Assembly: GCA_020831625.1 (NCBI GenBank)
Contig: JAFIGD010000026.1
Coordinates: 1 to 64,000 of the forward strand
Length of the DNA stretch: 64,000 nt
Source of the DNA: Verrucomicrobiota bacterium
Lineage (GTDB): Bacteria; Verrucomicrobiota; Kiritimatiellia; SS1-B-03-39; UBA6053
Reading direction: 5' to 3'
In this document: piece after piece, positions 5,136 through 15,647 of the stretch
How the letters are laid out: each line of letters starts with the position of its first letter
How positions within the stretch are numbered: position 1 is the first letter of the stretch
The notes under the pieces: model-generated
Seen by the model: only the letters and a program-made list of their open reading frames with translations
Told to the model about the DNA's origin: nothing
The model's database searches: none
Position numbers and translations under genes: made by a program

Positions 5136-5360
5136 GGAAAAGCGGGGTGAAAGGGGCGGTTGGAATGGGTTCGTTGTTATTCCGGTTCGGAGAAGAGGAC
5201 ATAACCAGTAATTTCGCTGACTGCGGAAAAACCTTACAAATCCGGAGGTTGGTTTTGACCAATAGTCTCCATGTCCCAGGCCCTTTGTTAGCTTCCTTGC
5301 CTTCTGTAAAAACGTGCGGGTTTGAAAGGGAGGTGCTGCAGGTGAATGACTGTGTGGGGA

Positions 5361-5459
5361 AGCCGGGGCAGGATGCCCCGCGTCCTGTGGTGGTGGGAGC
5401 CGGGGCAGGATGCCCCGCGTCCTGTGGTGGTGGGAGCCGGGGCAGGATGCCCCGCGTCC
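5361..5459. repeat. 37-bp direct repeats, each with a GGGGCA/TGCCCC hairpin
   Basis: Two complete 37-base copies (5361-5397, 5398-5434) and a third truncated after 25 bases (5435-5459) lie head to tail. Each contains the perfect palindrome GGGGCAGGATGCCCC, so up to three identical hairpins could form just beyond the 3' end of the TIM-barrel gene. They may terminate or protect that transcript; there is no U-tract. Confidence 0.75.
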
Positions 5460-5474
5460 GGCGAGGAAAAGCCC

Positions 5475-6341
5475 TCAAAAACAGTGTTTGGCGAGTTTTT
5501 GATAGAGGAGGGCCTGGGCGTAGCGGTCGGTTTCTTCGCGCAGGGTTCCGTCCGCATCCGGGAAGACGCGGGCGTAGTAGAACTTATTGGTGAGCAGTTC
5601 GGGGGCGAAGATGAGCACATCGCCGGGCCCGGCATGGGTTTTGAATCCCCGCATGGCGAGGGTCCACAGGGTTTTGAAATCGGCAAGATAGTCGCCGCCG
5701 GTGGCCATGCGGGGTTTGTCGTTCACGGTTTCGACCGGGGCCTGCATGAAGCCGGGGGCGGCGATGCGTCCGTGCATGAAGCCGGTGCGGTCGAACACGG
5801 GTTGCATAAACGTCAGCTTTTGCGCGAAGTCTCCGTACACCATTTCCTGCCCGCAATAGTAGTGGCTGTAGTCGGCGTTGAGCAGGAGGTCCGGGTGACG
5901 TTTGAGCAAGTGCACCGTGCGCCACATGTCCTGGGTGACGGTGGCGCGATGGGTTTCGACAAAGGCGGGGAGACTGTGGCGGTCAGAGGCCTCCAGCACC
6001 GCATGCACCAGGGCGTCCACCTCCGCGTCGTCCTCAATGCCCCAGGCGAGGTGCAGGGTGATGCAACTGTCGCCAAGATCCTTGTGGCGTTTGAAGATGT
6101 CCTCCACCTCGGCGGGGGTGTTGATGCGGTCGAGGCCGCAAAAGGGCAGGATGTCGGAGCGGGGCGAGAGATCGGTGACCTGCACGCCCTCAAAGCCGTC
6201 CTCTTTCAGTTTGTGCAGCGCCTCGTCTCCCTGAAGACCGGGCCAGTCGCTGTCCGGCGGCAGATCGAAGAGATTGTCGAGGTTGAGGTAGATTCGGAGT
6301 TTGGGTTGATCCCGGGTTCCGTCATTCAGATATTGGGGCAT
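5475..6341 (-). CDS. TIM-barrel sugar isomerase/epimerase-like enzyme
   Basis: A 288-residue protein of the xylose-isomerase-like (AP endonuclease 2) TIM-barrel superfamily, which contains sugar and inositol isomerases and dehydratases. Likely metal ligands are Glu129 (FVETH), Asp157 (NADYSH), His190 (FMHGR) and Glu248 (APELL), in the order and spacing typical of the fold. I start at ATG 6341 because AAGGAG lies just upstream; an ATG seven codons earlier overlaps the previous gene. It follows the oxygenase/Rieske/reductase fusion by 10 bases, so they are surely one operon. The pairing recalls the rhizopine moc genes, where MocC is a related TIM barrel beside MocD/E/F. The substrate is unknown. 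Confidence 0.8.
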   Translation of the reverse strand: MPQYLNDGTRDQPKLRIYLNLDNLFDLPPDSDWPGLQGDEALHKLKEDGFEGVQVTDLSPRSDILPFCGLDRINTPAEVEDIFKRHKDLGDSCITLHLAWGIEDDAEVDALVHAVLEASDRHSLPAFVETHRATVTQDMWRTVHLLKRHPDLLLNADYSHYYCGQEMVYGDFAQKLTFMQPVFDRTGFMHGRIAAPGFMQAPVETVNDKPRMATGGDYLADFKTLWTLAMRGFKTHAGPGDVLIFAPELLTNKFYYARVFPDADGTLREETDRYAQALLYQKLAKHCF

Positions 6342-6351
6342 GGTTGTCTCC

Positions 6352-8643
6352 TTAAAACTCATCGTACGCGATCTGGTCGGCGGTCACGCCGTGCTCCATC
6401 AGCATTTTGGTGCAGGCTTTGATCATCATGGGCGGACCGCAGAGATAGAATTCGAGGGCGGCGGGGTGGGGGTGGTCTTTGAGGAACTGTTCCTCGACGA
6501 CGTGGTGGATGAAGCCCGCGTGACCGGTCCATTCATCCTCTGGCAGCGGTTCGGACAGGGCCAGCTCAAAGCGGAAGTTCTCGTTATTTGCGGCCAGATC
6601 CTCAAAGTATTCCTGATAGTAGATTTCCTGCCGGGAGCGGGCACCGTACCAGAAGCTGACCTGCCGGGCGGTGTTTTGGTCCTCGAAGAGATGTTCGAGG
6701 TGGGCGCGAAGGGGGCCCATGCCCGCGCCGCCGCCGATGTAGACCATTTCTTTTTGGGTGGGTTTGATGTGGAAGTCGCCGAAGGGGCCGATGGCGGTGA
6801 CACTGTCGCCGGGTTTGAGGCTGAAGACGCAGGCGGAGCCGACACCGGGCGGGCAGTCCTGTCCCGGCGGCGGGGTTGCCAGACGCACGTTGAAGACGAG
6901 TTTGCCCTCCCCGTGCACGCGCCCCGCGAGGGAGTAGTTGTTGCGCTTGGGATTGGGATTGCTGACCTCGAGGTCGAAGACGTGCTGGTTGGCCCAAACC
7001 GTTCGGTAGGGTTCGGGGATGTCGAAGTCTTTGAACTGCAGAAGCACGTATTCGGGGATGTCGAGCTGCATGTAGTCGCCGGGGGTGAAGTCTGGAAGGG
7101 TTTCGCCCTCATCGGCTTCAAGGGTCAGTTCCCGGATGAAGGTGGAGACGTTGCGGGTGGCGGCGACGCGGAGATTGAGCCGTCGCTCGTCGCGGGCACC
7201 GGCGCCGCCGGGCTGGAGGAGGTTGAGCCAAATGCGTCCGGCGCGCTCCTCGATGGGATAGGTGGCCAGGCCGCGGCAAATGGGCGCGCGGGCGGGGGAG
7301 CCGTCCTCCAGCTTGAAGCGTCCGTTGTGCTTGGGGCATTCGATCATGTCGCCCACGATGAGGCCGTCGGACAGATGGGTGTTGCCGTGGGTGCACATGC
7401 CGTCGGTTGCGAACAGCTTTCCGTTCGCGTCGCGGTAGAGGGCGAAGGTTTTCTTGCCGTGATCGAAGCGGATCACATCCTGGTTGCCCAGATCGGCGGC
7501 GGCGCAGATTTCCAGCCATCCGTCGGTGTCGGGCTCGGCGTCGGAGGTGAAGCTTCCCTCCTCGACGCGGGCTTTGGGCGGGGGCAGTTTGCGTTTCACG
7601 TGCCAGGCGGGATCTTTGACCTGCTTGAGAATGGCCGGAAAAATTTCTTTCCAGGCCACATACAGGCCCGGATAGGGTTCCGGGCAGTCGTCTTTGACGG
7701 CGGCGTGCAGTTCCGGAAGGCGGTGGTAGGGAACCAGCGGGAACATGTGATGCTCCACGTGATAGTTCATGTTCCAATACAGGAAGCGGTGCAGGCGGCA
7801 CATATAGACGGTGCGGCAATTGAGGCGGTGATCCAGGACGTTTTCGGCGAGGCCCGCATGTTGAGTGAGGCCGTAGATCAGCATCAGCCAGGTGCCGAAG
7901 AGGTGGGGCATGAGGATGAGAAACAGAGGCAGCCAGGTCTGGAGGATCAGCGCCGAGGCGATGACCGCCAGATAGATACCCAGATAAATCCGGGCCCGGA
8001 AAATGACCCTGCCGAACTCGGTTTCGGGAATGAAGGTTTTCTCTTCGGGGGTCATGCGGCCCAGACTGTGGGTCGCGATATGTTTGAAGTAGTTTTTGTA
8101 CACCGGCAGGTTGAAGACGCTCAGAAACAGAGCTTTCAGATCGGGCGGGCGCGGCACCGCGATTTCCGGGTCGCGGCCCACGATGATGGTGTCGCTGTGA
8201 TGGCGGGTGTGGCTCCAGCGCCAGACGGTCGATTCGCGCATAACCATAAAGGACGCGATTTCGTAGAGGGCGTTGTTCATCCAGTCGGTTTTGAAGGCGG
8301 TGCCGTGGCTGGACTCGTGCCAGCGCGAATCCGAGGTGGAGGCGTAGAGCACCGCGTAGCAGAGATAGGGCAGGGCGGCCCAGGCCGAACCCCACAGCAT
8401 CGCGGTCGCGATCCCGAAACCGAGGATCAGTGCGAACCAGATCAGGGTGTCCCGAATGGCGGGGCCGTCTTTGCGTTCCAGGAGGGAGCGCATGACCGCG
8501 CGGGGGACCGGGCACTGATACCAGTCCGCCTCCGCCAGACCCCGTTCGATTGCCTTGCGCGAATTCTCGCCCACCAGACTGTAGTCCAGGGTCTTCAGGG
8601 GCGGCAGCACCGCGTGGGATTCGTGTTCCATGATTTCAGCCAT
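6352..8643 (-). CDS. Desaturase-like oxygenase / Rieske / NqrF-like reductase fusion
   Basis: A 763-residue three-part redox enzyme. Residues about 60-340 are a membrane di-iron desaturase/hydroxylase domain with histidine boxes HESSH (109-113), HTRHH (145-149) and HVEHH (295-299). Residues about 370-475 are a Rieske [2Fe-2S] domain with C417-T-H419 and C436-P-K-H439. Residues about 485-763 match the FAD/NADH half of NqrF, with YIGGGAGMGPLRAH, SFWYGARS and YLCGPPMM, but without NqrF's own ferredoxin domain. NADH electrons could thus pass through FAD and the Rieske cluster to the di-iron site in one chain. The same three activities are separate proteins in MocD/MocE/MocF-type systems. The FAD motif reads RNNYS, one residue longer than the usual RxYS. 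First gene of a two-gene operon. Confidence 0.85.
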   Translation of the reverse strand: MAEIMEHESHAVLPPLKTLDYSLVGENSRKAIERGLAEADWYQCPVPRAVMRSLLERKDGPAIRDTLIWFALILGFGIATAMLWGSAWAALPYLCYAVLYASTSDSRWHESSHGTAFKTDWMNNALYEIASFMVMRESTVWRWSHTRHHSDTIIVGRDPEIAVPRPPDLKALFLSVFNLPVYKNYFKHIATHSLGRMTPEEKTFIPETEFGRVIFRARIYLGIYLAVIASALILQTWLPLFLILMPHLFGTWLMLIYGLTQHAGLAENVLDHRLNCRTVYMCRLHRFLYWNMNYHVEHHMFPLVPYHRLPELHAAVKDDCPEPYPGLYVAWKEIFPAILKQVKDPAWHVKRKLPPPKARVEEGSFTSDAEPDTDGWLEICAAADLGNQDVIRFDHGKKTFALYRDANGKLFATDGMCTHGNTHLSDGLIVGDMIECPKHNGRFKLEDGSPARAPICRGLATYPIEERAGRIWLNLLQPGGAGARDERRLNLRVAATRNVSTFIRELTLEADEGETLPDFTPGDYMQLDIPEYVLLQFKDFDIPEPYRTVWANQHVFDLEVSNPNPKRNNYSLAGRVHGEGKLVFNVRLATPPPGQDCPPGVGSACVFSLKPGDSVTAIGPFGDFHIKPTQKEMVYIGGGAGMGPLRAHLEHLFEDQNTARQVSFWYGARSRQEIYYQEYFEDLAANNENFRFELALSEPLPEDEWTGHAGFIHHVVEEQFLKDHPHPAALEFYLCGPPMMIKACTKMLMEHGVTADQIAYDEF

Positions 8644-8782
8644 AGCAAACTCCTTGATGGATTGTTTCAGCGTATACTACACGCAAAGTCTGTCTGAAAT
8701 CTTCTCGCATTCGCTCAGAAACATCTCATTTTTTGTGGATGTGTGCTGCCGCCGAACTCTGAGCGGCCGATTGTGACCGAGG

Positions 8783-10741
8783 TCAGGGAGGGTCTTCGCG
8801 GGTGAGGAGCATAAAGCGGACGGGCTGGGGGAAGTCGGCGGGTGTGAGGGGCGGAAGCTCCCGGAACAGATAAAAGCGGATGAACTTGCGGCGGACGCGG
8901 GGGCGGGTTGCGAGTTTGCTGACATTATCAACGGTGAGGGCGTGCCAGTGTTGGCGGGGCCAGTGGATGAGTTCGAATTCCCCGCGCGGGGTCCAGCCCT
9001 GTTCACGGTAGAGCGCTTCCCGGTCGGGTCCGGTGATGCGGACGGCGGCTTCGGGCACGGGCAGGGGGCTGAAGTGAACGGGATAGCCGCGGAGATACCA
9101 GGCGAGCGGCCAGGTGTAGTCGGGATCGATATGCACGGGGGCATCCGGGGCGTGTTGATGACGGGCGTCGAGGATGCGGAGCGCGGTTTTGATGTGCGGA
9201 CCGGCGTGGGCATAGAACAGGGGTTCATTTGGCGATTCGGCGAGAGGACCGGCGGCGCGGAAACTGTTGAGAATGAGATGAAGGAGCAGCGGGGTGAGGA
9301 GGAGCCGGAGGCGGGTCCGCGCTTCGAACGCGGCGGCAAGGACGGGTCCGGCCAGAAGACAGAGCGGGAGGGTGATGTGAATCAGCAGCCAGGGCATGCG
9401 TTCGCCGGCGAAGGAGTAGATCAGCAGATTTCCGAGCGTGTACAGACAAAGGACGAGGGTTGTCGGTTCCCGAATTCGCCGGAGGCTGAGAAAGAAGGTG
9501 ATCAGGAGCAGCGGGGTGTACAGCAGGAGGAGGGAGATATAGAACAGGGGGTCGGAGGCGCCCCGCTGGACCTCATGCTGGGCGAGCCAGTATCCGAGAC
9601 CGGCGGCAATGCCGCTGGTGAGCCCCTGGGCGGGGTTGCTGAGGAGGGTGGAGTAGAGGAGGATTTGGATCCCCCAGAAAAGGGAAAAGGCTTTGATCCA
9701 GGCGGCGAAGGCGGGGCGGTCCTTAAACCAAAGGGCCGCGATGAGCCAGGAGACGGAGGAGAGGCTGAGGGCGGTGGTGAGGGCGATGCGCTGCAGGGCG
9801 GGATTGCGGGTGGCGAGGGGATCGGCGCCGATGAGCGTGAGCGGCAGCGCGGTGGCGAAAGGGAGGGCGAGGGTGAGGAGGGTGACGGCGATGTCGCCCC
9901 AGCGCATGTCGGCGCAGGCGAGGGTTCGGGATTTCCGGAATCCGATGCCCGCGAACAGCACCGCGACCGCGCCGAGGACGGTGCCGTGGATAAACGCGAC
10001 CTCTTTACAGGCGAAGCTCAAGGCCAGGCCCAGCGAAAGCCGGATCAGGTATTTCGGGGTTCCGGTTTCGCGGTAGCGGAGGGCGGCCCAAAGCAGGATC
10101 AGTGAAAAAAGGCTGATGTAGATATCGTTGCGCAGATAGCGGCTGTAGTAGAGCAGTCCGGGAGAGACGGCGATGAGGGCGGCGGCGGTCAGGGCACCGC
10201 TTTTGCCGAGCCAGCGGCGGAAGCCGACCGCGGCGAAGGGGACGCAGGCGGTGCCGGCCAGAGCGGGAGCGAGGCGGGCGGTGAAGTCGGTGGCCCCGAA
10301 AAGCGCATAGACCAGCGCGTTGAGGTGAAACAGCAGCGGCCCGTGCATCATGGGGTCGTGTTCGTAATGAAAGGCGCTGGCAAGATACCAGGAATACAGG
10401 GCGTGGAGCGATTCGTCATGGCTCATGGCGCGGTGACCCAAACCCGCCAGTCGGAGAAGAAGCGCCAATATGGAGAGAAGAGTGACGAGTGACGAGTGAC
10501 GAGTGACGAGTGGGGAGTGAGGAGTGACGAGTGGGGAGTGACGAGAGAAGAGTGACGAGAGAGGAGTGACGAGTGGGGAGTGACGGGTGACGAAGGAGGA
10601 AAGGCGGGTGAGGAGGGCGGAAAGGCGGGTGGGGGGACGAGGGATGGAGGACGGCGGAGAGGGATGAGCCGGCTGCTCGGCGGGCCCGTCCTCGGCTGAG
10701 GGCGTTTGCGGGTGATTCTGGGAGGGTAAACGGATGTTCAT
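8783..10741 (-). CDS. Membrane glycosyltransferase, GT39-like (TIGR03663-type)
   Basis: A polytopic membrane protein resembling dolichyl-phosphate-mannose protein mannosyltransferases. The first loop has the expected acidic motif (MSHDESLHALYSW) and conserved MHGPLLFHLNALVYALFG, followed by about ten hydrophobic segments and a C-terminal soluble part. It probably moves a sugar from a lipid carrier to a protein or lipid on the periplasmic side. The first 90 residues are odd: they are a translation of the GACGAGT tandem array (repeating SSLVTRH). ATG 10741 lacks a clear ribosome site, so the true start may lie closer to the first membrane segment, for example TTG near 10466. It stands alone between oppositely organised neighbours. 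Confidence 0.75.
   Translation of the reverse strand: MNIRLPSQNHPQTPSAEDGPAEQPAHPSPPSSIPRPPTRLSALLTRLSSFVTRHSPLVTPLSSLFSRHSPLVTPHSPLVTRHSSLVTLLSILALLLRLAGLGHRAMSHDESLHALYSWYLASAFHYEHDPMMHGPLLFHLNALVYALFGATDFTARLAPALAGTACVPFAAVGFRRWLGKSGALTAAALIAVSPGLLYYSRYLRNDIYISLFSLILLWAALRYRETGTPKYLIRLSLGLALSFACKEVAFIHGTVLGAVAVLFAGIGFRKSRTLACADMRWGDIAVTLLTLALPFATALPLTLIGADPLATRNPALQRIALTTALSLSSVSWLIAALWFKDRPAFAAWIKAFSLFWGIQILLYSTLLSNPAQGLTSGIAAGLGYWLAQHEVQRGASDPLFYISLLLLYTPLLLITFFLSLRRIREPTTLVLCLYTLGNLLIYSFAGERMPWLLIHITLPLCLLAGPVLAAAFEARTRLRLLLTPLLLHLILNSFRAAGPLAESPNEPLFYAHAGPHIKTALRILDARHQHAPDAPVHIDPDYTWPLAWYLRGYPVHFSPLPVPEAAVRITGPDREALYREQGWTPRGEFELIHWPRQHWHALTVDNVSKLATRPRVRRKFIRFYLFRELPPLTPADFPQPVRFMLLTREDPP
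10479..10596. repeat. GACGAGT heptamer array inside the glycosyltransferase 5' end
   Basis: About sixteen degenerate 7-base units (GACGAGT, GGGGAGT, GAGGAGT and similar) run through what would be codons about 49-88 of the glycosyltransferase. The family recurs at 33820-33893 in a gene-free stretch. On the coding strand it reads as repeated Val-Thr-Arg-His-Ser-Ser-Leu. Confidence 0.8.
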
Positions 10742-12798: not shown

Positions 12799-14553
12799 TC
12801 AGATGGTGTGAAAGCAGCCGCCGAGGAGTTGGATGCGTCCGGGAAGGCGGGTGCGGACGGTGAAGCGGGGAGATGGGGGGAAATCGTGCGGTTGGAAGCC
12901 TTTGCGGATGGAGAGGAGTCCGTCGGCGCGGGCGAAACTGTGGCGGTAGACGCGGGCGAAGAGGGAGAATCCCCGATAGCTCCAGCGGCTGCGGCGCAGG
13001 TCGCTGAAAACAAAGCCGCGTCGGCAGTGGCGGGCGGCGTCATTTATAAGTTTTTCGACCGCCGCGTCGGGGAGGTGATGCAGAAAATGATTGGCGAAGA
13101 GGTAGTCGAAGGGCTCAAGGGCGGTGAGATTCAGGGCGTCGGCCTGAAGAATGGTGAGTCCGGAAACATCGCCGTGGCGCGTTCGGGCGTAGTGAACGGC
13201 GCGGGGATCGGCATCGACGGCGGTGATGTGCAGATCGAGGTTTTTGCGTTTGGCGGCCCGGAGCAGCCAAACGGGTAGATCGCAGGCCCCGGCTCCGAGG
13301 TCGACAAGGTGAAACGCGCGTCCGGGCTGCATGTCGGCGAGCACGGTTTCAGTGAGCAGGCCGCGGGCCCGGCTGAAGAGTCGGTTGATCTGATGAAACT
13401 GATCCAGGGTGCGGTTGAGTTGGGCGGGATCGCAGTCCGGGGAATCCATGCGTTCCGCTTCGGTGGCGCGCCGGCTGAAATCGGGGGGCGGATTGCGCAT
13501 GGCGAAGGTGCGGGCGAGGGTTTGGTGTGTCGGGGGGTGGCGGAGGGCGCAGCGGAGGACGGCGGCGCGCATTCGGCTTGCGGGTGCGCCGGTGCGGGTG
13601 CCGAGGAACATGCCGGCGGCGGCGCGGCGGGAGGCGGACCGGAAGGCGCGCCGGCGGATGCGGGTGTATTCGGTCAGGGCTTGGGCGGTCGGTGCGGGCA
13701 GGATGCGGGCCAGGTGGGCGGCGTCGGCGAATCCGGTGTTCATGCCCTGGCCGCCGATGGGACTCAGGGTGTGGGCGGCGTCGCCGCAGAGAATGACATT
13801 GTTTTTGTGAAACGTCCGGGCCAGGGCGCGGCGGGGGGTGAAGGCGCAGGGGGGACTGTGGGGGCGGTCGGTGAGGTTGATGTTGGCGGCGTCCTGAACG
13901 CGTTGCCGGAGGGTGGACAGGTCGGGCGGCGCGCCGTTCACGCACTGGGCGACCCAGCGGCGCTGTCGGTTCGGGAGCGGAAAGGACTCCACGGCGCCGC
14001 GCGGGGAGAAAAAGAGGCGGGCGTCGGGGCCGAGGTCTTCGATGTCGGGAAAATCGGCCATGACAAAGGTCACGGGATAGGTTTTTTGATCAACGGGGAT
14101 GTTGAAATATGTGCGGAGAGGGCTGTGCGCGCCGTCGCAGGCGATGATGTGACCGTCATGGCGGTCGGCCTCGGCTGGCTCCCGGTCGGTGCCTTCGAGA
14201 AAAGTGACGGTTGGGAAGGATTGAAGGCGTTGCCGAAGCAGATCGAGGGTTCCGAACTGCGGAAGCGAGAGGATTTGATTTTCCGAAGGTCGGAAATCAA
14301 GGATGCCGACCGGGCGGCCCTGTTCGTAGACGCGGGCGCGGGGGATGAGGACTCCGCGTTCGAGAAAGGCGTTTTTGAGATCGAGGGTGTCGAGGATATC
14401 GAGGGAGGGCGGGGTGATGCCGATGGCCATGGACGCCTGGGGGAGTCCGGTTCGTTTTTCGTAGAGGATCACGTCCTGATTTTGTCGGCCCAGCAGGCAG
14501 GCGAGGAGGAGGCCGACGGGGCCGGCGCCGACGATAACGATCGGTTGGGTCAT
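12799..14553 (-). CDS. FAD monooxygenase fused to SAM methyltransferase
   Basis: A 584-residue two-domain tailoring enzyme. Residues 1-350 are a flavoprotein monooxygenase of the p-hydroxybenzoate hydroxylase class: FAD motif GAGPVG (9-14), CDGAHS (139-144) and the ribityl-binding GDAAHTLSPIGGQGMN (257-272). Residues about 375-584 are a class I methyltransferase with SAM motif VDLGAGACDLP (417-427) and a UbiE-like lead-in (QINRLFSRARGLL). It overlaps the type III polyketide synthase by ATGA, so translation is coupled. In Streptomyces griseus srs-type pathways a type III synthase is followed by separate methylation and flavin hydroxylation, giving methylated phenolic lipid quinones; here both tailoring steps are on one chain. 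The product is inferred. Confidence 0.85.
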   Translation of the reverse strand: MTQPIVIVGAGPVGLLLACLLGRQNQDVILYEKRTGLPQASMAIGITPPSLDILDTLDLKNAFLERGVLIPRARVYEQGRPVGILDFRPSENQILSLPQFGTLDLLRQRLQSFPTVTFLEGTDREPAEADRHDGHIIACDGAHSPLRTYFNIPVDQKTYPVTFVMADFPDIEDLGPDARLFFSPRGAVESFPLPNRQRRWVAQCVNGAPPDLSTLRQRVQDAANINLTDRPHSPPCAFTPRRALARTFHKNNVILCGDAAHTLSPIGGQGMNTGFADAAHLARILPAPTAQALTEYTRIRRRAFRSASRRAAAGMFLGTRTGAPASRMRAAVLRCALRHPPTHQTLARTFAMRNPPPDFSRRATEAERMDSPDCDPAQLNRTLDQFHQINRLFSRARGLLTETVLADMQPGRAFHLVDLGAGACDLPVWLLRAAKRKNLDLHITAVDADPRAVHYARTRHGDVSGLTILQADALNLTALEPFDYLFANHFLHHLPDAAVEKLINDAARHCRRGFVFSDLRRSRWSYRGFSLFARVYRHSFARADGLLSIRKGFQPHDFPPSPRFTVRTRLPGRIQLLGGCFHTI

Positions 14554-15647
14554 GGGGTAATCCGTTGCATGAGGGCGGTTTCGACGGTGAGTCCGGGGCC
14601 GAACGCCATGGCGGCGGTGCGGGTGCCGGGGGGGTGTTGGCTGAGGCCCTGTTTGAGCAGAAAGAAGAGGGTGGCGCTGCTCATGTTGCCGTGGGTGCGG
14701 AGAACACCGCGGGCGATGTCGAGCGCGGAGGCCGGGAGGCGGAAGGCGTCGGAGATACGGTCAAGAATCGCTTTGCCGCCGGGATGAACGGCCCAGAAGC
14801 CGATGTCATGCACCGGCCATTCCAGTGTGTCGAGGTGTGGCAGGACGGCCTGGCGGATGTTTTCGCCGAGGATGTGGGGGACATAGGCGGAGAGGACGAT
14901 GTCGAAGCCGTGATTTCCGATGTTCCAGGCCATGTCGTGTTCGCCGGCGGGCACAAGCGTGGTGGCGAGGTGCTGCAGTTGGTAGCCGGGGTGTCCGGTG
15001 GCGGGGGGACGGGTGCTGACCAGGGCGCAGCCGCCGCCGTCGGCGAAGAGGGAGGAGGCGACGAGCGCCTCCGGGTTGTCGGTTTGCAGTTGCACATGCA
15101 GACTGCACAGTTCGAGGCATTGAATGAGCACGACCGCGTCGGGATGGGCGCGGCAGATGGTGTTGGCCATGCGCAGGGCGGGGAAGGCGGCATAACAGCC
15201 CATGAATCCGAGGTGAAAGCGTTCGACGGTTTGGGCGAGGCCCAGGGCCTGAACGATGTGGTGGTCGGGACCGGGGGTGTAAAAACCGGTGCAGGAGGCG
15301 GTGATGACGTGGGTGATGTCCGCGGGGGAGATGCCGGGGGCGGCTTGGAGCGTTTGGCGGGCGAGTTGGATGGACGCGGGCTTGGAGATGCGAATGTAGT
15401 GTTGGTTCCGGTCGCCGGTGAGTTCGTTTCGCCATTGCCCGTGGGCATCGGGGGCGAAGAGTTCGCGGGGGCCGTCAAAGGGGATGCAGGTGTGACGGGT
15501 GTCGATCGCGGATTGTTTATAGATGTGGCGGACGATCCGCCGGGCCCGTTTGTCGGGCAGCTGGGTGGCGAGTTGTTCGGCGGCATCGGATTGAGACAGG
15601 CGTGCGGGCGGGGTCCAGGTTTCGACAGCATGAAGATAAACGGGCAT
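14550..15647 (-). CDS. Type III polyketide synthase
   Basis: A 365-residue chalcone/stilbene-synthase-family enzyme that would extend an acyl-CoA starter with malonyl-CoA to an alkylpyrone, alkylresorcinol or similar ring. The catalytic triad is visible: Cys151 in GFMGCYAA, His288 in WAVHPGGKAIL and Asn321 in THGNMSSAT; ITASCTGFYTPG and the closing GFGPGL-like FGPGLTVE are also family marks. Length is normal. It is the first gene of a two-gene operon with the fused monooxygenase-methyltransferase, overlapping four bases. Compare with bacterial synthases such as SrsA and BpsA; starter preference cannot be read from sequence alone. Confidence 0.92.
   Translation of the reverse strand: MPVYLHAVETWTPPARLSQSDAAEQLATQLPDKRARRIVRHIYKQSAIDTRHTCIPFDGPRELFAPDAHGQWRNELTGDRNQHYIRISKPASIQLARQTLQAAPGISPADITHVITASCTGFYTPGPDHHIVQALGLAQTVERFHLGFMGCYAAFPALRMANTICRAHPDAVVLIQCLELCSLHVQLQTDNPEALVASSLFADGGGCALVSTRPPATGHPGYQLQHLATTLVPAGEHDMAWNIGNHGFDIVLSAYVPHILGENIRQAVLPHLDTLEWPVHDIGFWAVHPGGKAILDRISDAFRLPASALDIARGVLRTHGNMSSATLFFLLKQGLSQHPPGTRTAAMAFGPGLTVETALMQRITP

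Follow-up and report, generated by a model that had tools for sequence, protein, structure and literature searches.

The question raised by this locus is what reaction would be served by a desaturase-type oxygenase that carries its electron supply within a single chain, and why the gene should adjoin one for a TIM barrel. In the window (the whole 64,000-nucleotide stretch of DNA that was analyzed) the relevant features are as follows.

5358–5468, no strand assigned: a G+C-rich 37-nt palindrome in three tandem copies, located between the TIM-barrel gene and RND efflux genes.
5475–6341, minus strand: xylose-isomerase-like TIM barrel of 288 amino acids, start corrected (family alignment, AlphaFold2, Foldseek, adjacent homologues).
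6348–6353, minus strand: Shine-Dalgarno AAGGAG of the TIM-barrel gene, which overlaps the fusion gene's stop codon (TAAGGAG; sequence).
6352–8643, minus strand: three-domain fusion protein, a single chain of 763 amino acids (ORF list, domain matches, 92-row alignment, AlphaFold2 with pLDDT 82.8).
6358–7173, minus strand: its NqrF-type FAD/NADH reductase domain, residues 491–762 (TIGR01941, Foldseek).
7225–7521, minus strand: its MocE-like Rieske [2Fe-2S] domain, residues 375–473 (Pfam-type and NCBIfam matches, alignment).
7669–8388, minus strand: its FA_desaturase/MocD-like di-iron domain, residues 86–325 (FA_desaturase, E = 8.5e-33).
8650–8655, minus strand: Shine-Dalgarno AAGGAG of the fusion gene (sequence).

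The anatomy of the fusion protein is certain. Its domains run from the FA_desaturase-type di-iron domain through the MocE-like Rieske domain to the NqrF-type FAD/NADH reductase, and Pfam and NCBIfam profiles match all three, as a preliminary description had claimed for the 763 residues; the same description had called the architecture self-sufficient, and oxygenase, Rieske carrier, and NADH reductase are indeed all in one chain. Conservation was read from an alignment of 92 full or nearly full homologues. The di-iron domain retains the histidine motifs HExxH, HTRHH, and HxEHH, with H109, H113, H145, H148, H149, H262, H295, H298, and H299 being either invariant or at least 90% conserved, and the Rieske ligands C417, H419, C436, and H439 (CTH...CPKH) are invariant. 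The Rieske match covers residues 375–462 (E = 1.1e-17), while the NCBIfam MocE model TIGR02377 gave 114.5 bits over residues 375–473 (E = 1.8e-33), a score below its cut-off of 136.15. For the reductase, NAD_binding_1 matched residues 635–744 (E = 3.2e-18), and TIGR01941 (NqrF) matched residues 491–762 with 322 bits (5e-96, model positions 133–403 of 405), which is above the equivalog cut-off of 295, so automatic annotation may call the whole protein NqrF. Foldseek likewise led from the C-terminal part of the AlphaFold2 model to NqrF FAD-domain structures at 44–47% identity. The FAD/NADH domain is thus common to the fusion and to subunit F of the Na+-translocating NADH:quinone reductase, but the N-terminal membrane helix and plant-type ferredoxin domain of NqrF are absent from the fusion, and the Rieske domain stands in that place. 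A separate NqrF is encoded on another contig of the same genome (C15), and no nqr gene occurs among the annotated window neighbors of the fusion. A promoter scan gave nothing above chance on the relevant strand.

The closest comparison is with MocD, MocE, and MocF, in which the desaturase-type oxygenase and the MocE-type Rieske protein come in the same order as in the fusion. Over residues 20–475, the fusion is 51–54% identical to adjoining MocD-like and MocE-like pairs of rhizobia and Acidiphilium, whose plasmids carry a gene annotated "fatty acid desaturase family protein" next to one annotated "MocE family 2Fe-2S type ferredoxin"; the kinship with MocD and MocE that had been claimed earlier is therefore upheld. 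Compared domain by domain, most MocD-like proteins are 51–57% identical to the di-iron domain, and annotated MocE proteins are 41–52% identical to the Rieske domain. The third gene of the separate sets, in the MocF position, encodes an FAD-dependent oxidoreductase; a comparison of MocF, so annotated, with the window's NqrF-type domain gave no significant similarity. The earlier suggestion of a fused MocD, MocE, and MocF consequently fails for its MocF part. In a maximum-likelihood tree built on the desaturase and Rieske parts, the fusions formed one group (support 100/98, present in all bootstrap trees) beside 10 of the 11 separate pairs; this monophyly and the dissimilarity to MocF show that the fusion has a single origin and that its electron source was exchanged. 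Two-domain desaturase-Rieske proteins that have no reductase (L141, L142, and L143) are 32–36% identical to the fusion and sit on long branches, so the tree placements of the Aminobacter sequence and L142 are unreliable. Sequence comparison strongly supports a family placement beside MocD and MocE, and on that footing the fusion is best described as a MocDEF-kind oxygenase in variant form: one chain rather than separate proteins, and with an NqrF-type, not detectably MocF-like, reductase replacing MocF.

That the adjoining gene encodes a TIM barrel, as first described, is borne out by the AlphaFold2 fold (pLDDT 92), by Foldseek, whose best matches are xylose-isomerase-superfamily proteins, and by its family, since Pfam AP_endonuc_2 (PF01261) weakly matches 8 of 23 members (best E = 1.8e-4). 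The window's copy alone had no Pfam match, and searching Pfam and PDB with the single sequence was unproductive; with the family profile, AsbF alone came up, as a weak match. No NCBIfam model matched at E ≤ 0.01, hence no curated MocC or inosose dehydratase model did. All 23 family sequences, without exception, have the candidate metal ligands E136, D164, H197, and E255. Fold and candidate ligand pattern are common to SCO6571, UlaE, AsbF, and D-xylose isomerase, but identity to the superfamily structures listed is only 10–16%, and on sequence the protein is taken as a distinct subfamily of xylose-isomerase-like barrels. The gene had been drawn as 5475–6362; position 6362 is an upstream ATG within the fusion gene, and the true start is 6341 (ATG CCC CAA TAT, MPQYLNDG...), because the family N-terminus aligns there and a Shine-Dalgarno sequence lies at the fusion stop. 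The start is 10 nt beyond that stop, and the overlap of the Shine-Dalgarno sequence with the stop codon suggests coupled translation of the two genes. The 37-nt palindromic copies beyond the TIM-barrel gene are likely a boundary element, apart from the enzyme pair; their 19-nt core occurs eight times in the genome (the reversed-pattern control, none) and is a small dispersed repeat family.

The search for the same domain order in other genomes, which had been proposed as a check, found it in 21 of 289 genomes of the phylum and in other phyla. The phylum set holds 25 near-full-length fusions, one of them split by a frame break (G023). Contigs of a species-level genome collection contained 582 candidate stretches, confirmed as matches, that encode a relative, and the best 80 of the 582 are fusions that match the query over its whole length or the greater part of it. 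The labels of these 80 include Verrucomicrobia, Acidobacteria, Bacteroidetes, Kiritimatiellae, Planctomycetes, Anaerolineae, and others, labels that are approximate because many records are metagenome bins; the fusion is found in at least four phyla and is widespread. The genome from which the window comes carries the fusion twice; the second copy lies on contig C6 and is 67% identical.

Genes were predicted and clustered in 95 fusion loci, those less than 1.5 kb from the fusion being compared with those farther away. TIM barrels stood near in 44 loci, about half, and farther in two (p = 2e-20), and in 36 of the 95 the TIM-barrel gene directly follows the fusion gene on its strand. At least four TIM subfamilies fill the slot (20, 13, 8, and 2 loci in the first locus set), and neither the second copy in the window's genome nor the nearest locus (L037) has the partner. 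The expectation of a conserved TIM-barrel partner thus holds for the slot, but not for its constant presence nor for any one subfamily. The window's subfamily is itself rare in the phylum (nine copies in 8 of 289 genomes), and seven of the nine copies adjoin a fusion.

The other genes enriched close to the fusion in the 95 loci are those of aldose epimerases (19 near, 4 farther), URO-D/MtaA-like proteins (16 and 7, p = 2.5e-4), AraC regulators (14 and 4), L-rhamnose mutarotase (5 and 0), and aldo/keto reductase. By way of background, aldose epimerases number two and URO-D stretches seven across the 4.9 Mb of the window's genome. Individual fusion operons contain L-rhamnose isomerase, L-fucose isomerase, rhamnosidase, fucosidase, rhamnogalacturonan lyase RGL11, RhaT, or parts of sugar ABC transporters; sulfatase is also among the neighbors. 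The sugar-catabolic context of the fusion is strong, and rhamnose- and fucose-type settings are the commonest clue to substrate. The genome itself carries RhaA and several GH78 enzymes, and the second copy has two URO-D stretches, a GH78 rhamnosidase, and a sulfatase for neighbors. Beside the window copy, the TIM barrel is the only sugar gene, the other neighbors being an RND pump and an Agl23-like glycosyltransferase. The latter, an Agl23/PMT-like membrane protein at 8783–10741 (TIGR03663, 249 bits), is encoded on the same strand as the fusion gene and 139 nt upstream of it.

Genes connected with methyl or one-carbon metabolism form the other recurrent theme. One locus (L124/L164) reads fusion, TIM barrel, MtaA/CmuA-like, URO-D, AraC, corrinoid protein, and MtaB (535 bits), then CobW and RACo, the last being a corrinoid activator; in two Anaerolineae loci, several URO-D genes and a corrinoid protein precede the fusion. 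By itself, the corrinoid-protein cluster was not enriched near the fusion in the 95 loci, so the corrinoid link rests on few of them. No MtaB gene was found in the window's genome, and the idea that the window copy stands beside a full MtaB-type corrinoid route was accordingly rejected. The genome does encode, on contig C79 (L165, 6797–10108), a B12-binding corrinoid protein followed by an MtaA/URO-D-like gene.

Among the unfused relatives, TIM barrels, MocA/IolG-type oxidoreductases, and C1 genes lie nearby, much as TIM barrels and methyl genes do at fusions; the Acidiphilium row reads MocD, MocE, MocF, TIM, TIM, MocA, MocA, TIM, MocA. PurU (formyl-THF deformylase) stands behind MocDEF in Phyllobacterium and Nitratireductor, a PanB-type hydroxymethyltransferase stands beside unfused mocD/mocE in several rhizobia, and inositol genes adjoin the relatives in Marivivens and Nitratireductor. 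PanB-type and/or PurU genes are repeated in the alphaproteobacterial mocD/mocE operons L152–L158, L160, and L161. They could provide a folate route for a released one-carbon unit; homology to PanB and URO-D is of course no proof of C1 chemistry. Near the fusion, no rhizopine genes, moc regulator, or mocABC were seen, and no formaldehyde dehydrogenase gene was seen next to it in the window.

From these observations we infer O-demethylation as the reaction, a methylated sugar as the substrate, and a sugar conversion by the TIM barrel; the fusion is probably an O-demethylase that uses NADH and O2, is self-sufficient, and acts on methylated (deoxy)sugars or cyclitols, and its TIM-barrel partner would process the freed sugar. 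NADH would reduce FAD in the NqrF-type domain, and electrons would pass from FAD by way of the Rieske cluster to the di-iron site in the desaturase domain, which is of membrane type; this order is taken from the domain types. At the di-iron site, O2 would serve to hydroxylate the O-linked methyl carbon of a methylated sugar or cyclitol, and the resulting hemiacetal would break down into formaldehyde and the free sugar. The TIM barrel, probably a metal-dependent isomerase or epimerase, would convert the freed (deoxy)sugar or a near product for catabolism, with other family members employing other TIM barrels in the same slot. The one family member found with a reported role is MocD, a separate protein acting on a methylated cyclitol: it is described as a rhizopine oxygenase converting 3-O-MSI to SI (PMC2593844), and mocDEF is rhizopine-inducible (PMC10107442). 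An inosamine is no likelier as substrate of the fusion than methylated rhamnose or fucose, and as fusion neighborhoods vary, substrates may vary as well, also between clades.

A lipid or carotenoid desaturase or hydroxylase with built-in electron supply and an incidental TIM neighbor would explain the desaturase fold and the histidine motifs of lipid enzymes, and, because no FA_desaturase gene besides the two fusion copies exists in the window's genome, the fusion would be the sole one available. Such a role is disfavored and appears very unlikely: no curated lipid-desaturase model passed (the best, DesB, gave 42.2 bits with a cut-off of 500), the neighbors are sugar and not lipid genes, and the closest relatives are catabolic MocD types. 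The sugar-gene neighbors, together with the inositol genes beside unfused relatives, instead support the sugar- or inositol-like substrate put forward in the preliminary description, and methyl removal accounts for the methyl and C1 neighbors more simply than lipid desaturation.

If the substrate is a sugar or cyclitol, the reaction might still be another one in deoxysugar catabolism, in which the enzyme either hydroxylates a C-H of the ring or a side chain or cleaves a non-methyl ether. The sugar neighborhood is clear whereas methyl release is supported indirectly, and many fusion loci have no methyltransferase or C1 gene; however, the kinship is with MocD, described on 3-O-methyl-scyllo-inosamine, and methyl and C1 neighbors recur in separate lineages, so that this alternative seems doubtful. 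We give little credence to an N-demethylase or an enzyme of methylated nitrogen compounds. Rhizopines are amino-cyclitols, and the L124 corrinoid protein scored best with the glycine-betaine MtgC model, though far below cut-off; yet the methyltransferase beside it is MtaB-like (methanol), no MtgB or MttB match was found there, and the regulators and transporters are of sugar type.

Methyl ethers shield plant, algal, and microbial polysaccharides from digestion, and methyl groups on sugars would otherwise block sugar breakdown. The enzymatic route that we found described for their removal is the P450 system of porphyran degraders, in which 6-O-methyl-D-galactose is oxidatively demethylated with NADH and O2 to formaldehyde and sugar (PMC10033563). 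Its logic is that proposed for the fusion and, as an analogy, shows that oxidative demethylation of sugars is real chemistry, but the P450 uses a separate ferredoxin and reductase, and its fold and metal site are unrelated. If O-demethylation by the fusion is correct, a one-chain NADH-driven non-haem enzyme would be a second general route for sugar methyl ethers, and would account for a possible use of methylated rhamnose- and fucose-rich glycans by many Verrucomicrobia. A literature search returned no paper that deals with a desaturase-Rieske-NqrF fusion or with MocD-type enzymes demethylating sugars, although one may exist. It is further conceivable, but rather unlikely, that a widespread module for glycan methyl-ether removal has the fusion as its aerobic arm and, in some bacteria, a corrinoid arm as well (MtaA/URO-D-like, corrinoid protein, MtaB, and RACo); the same methylated sugar could then be demethylated with or without oxygen.

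Elsewhere in the window, at 12799–15647, an apparent FAD monooxygenase-methyltransferase fusion, recognized by eye, lies beside a type III polyketide synthase-like gene.
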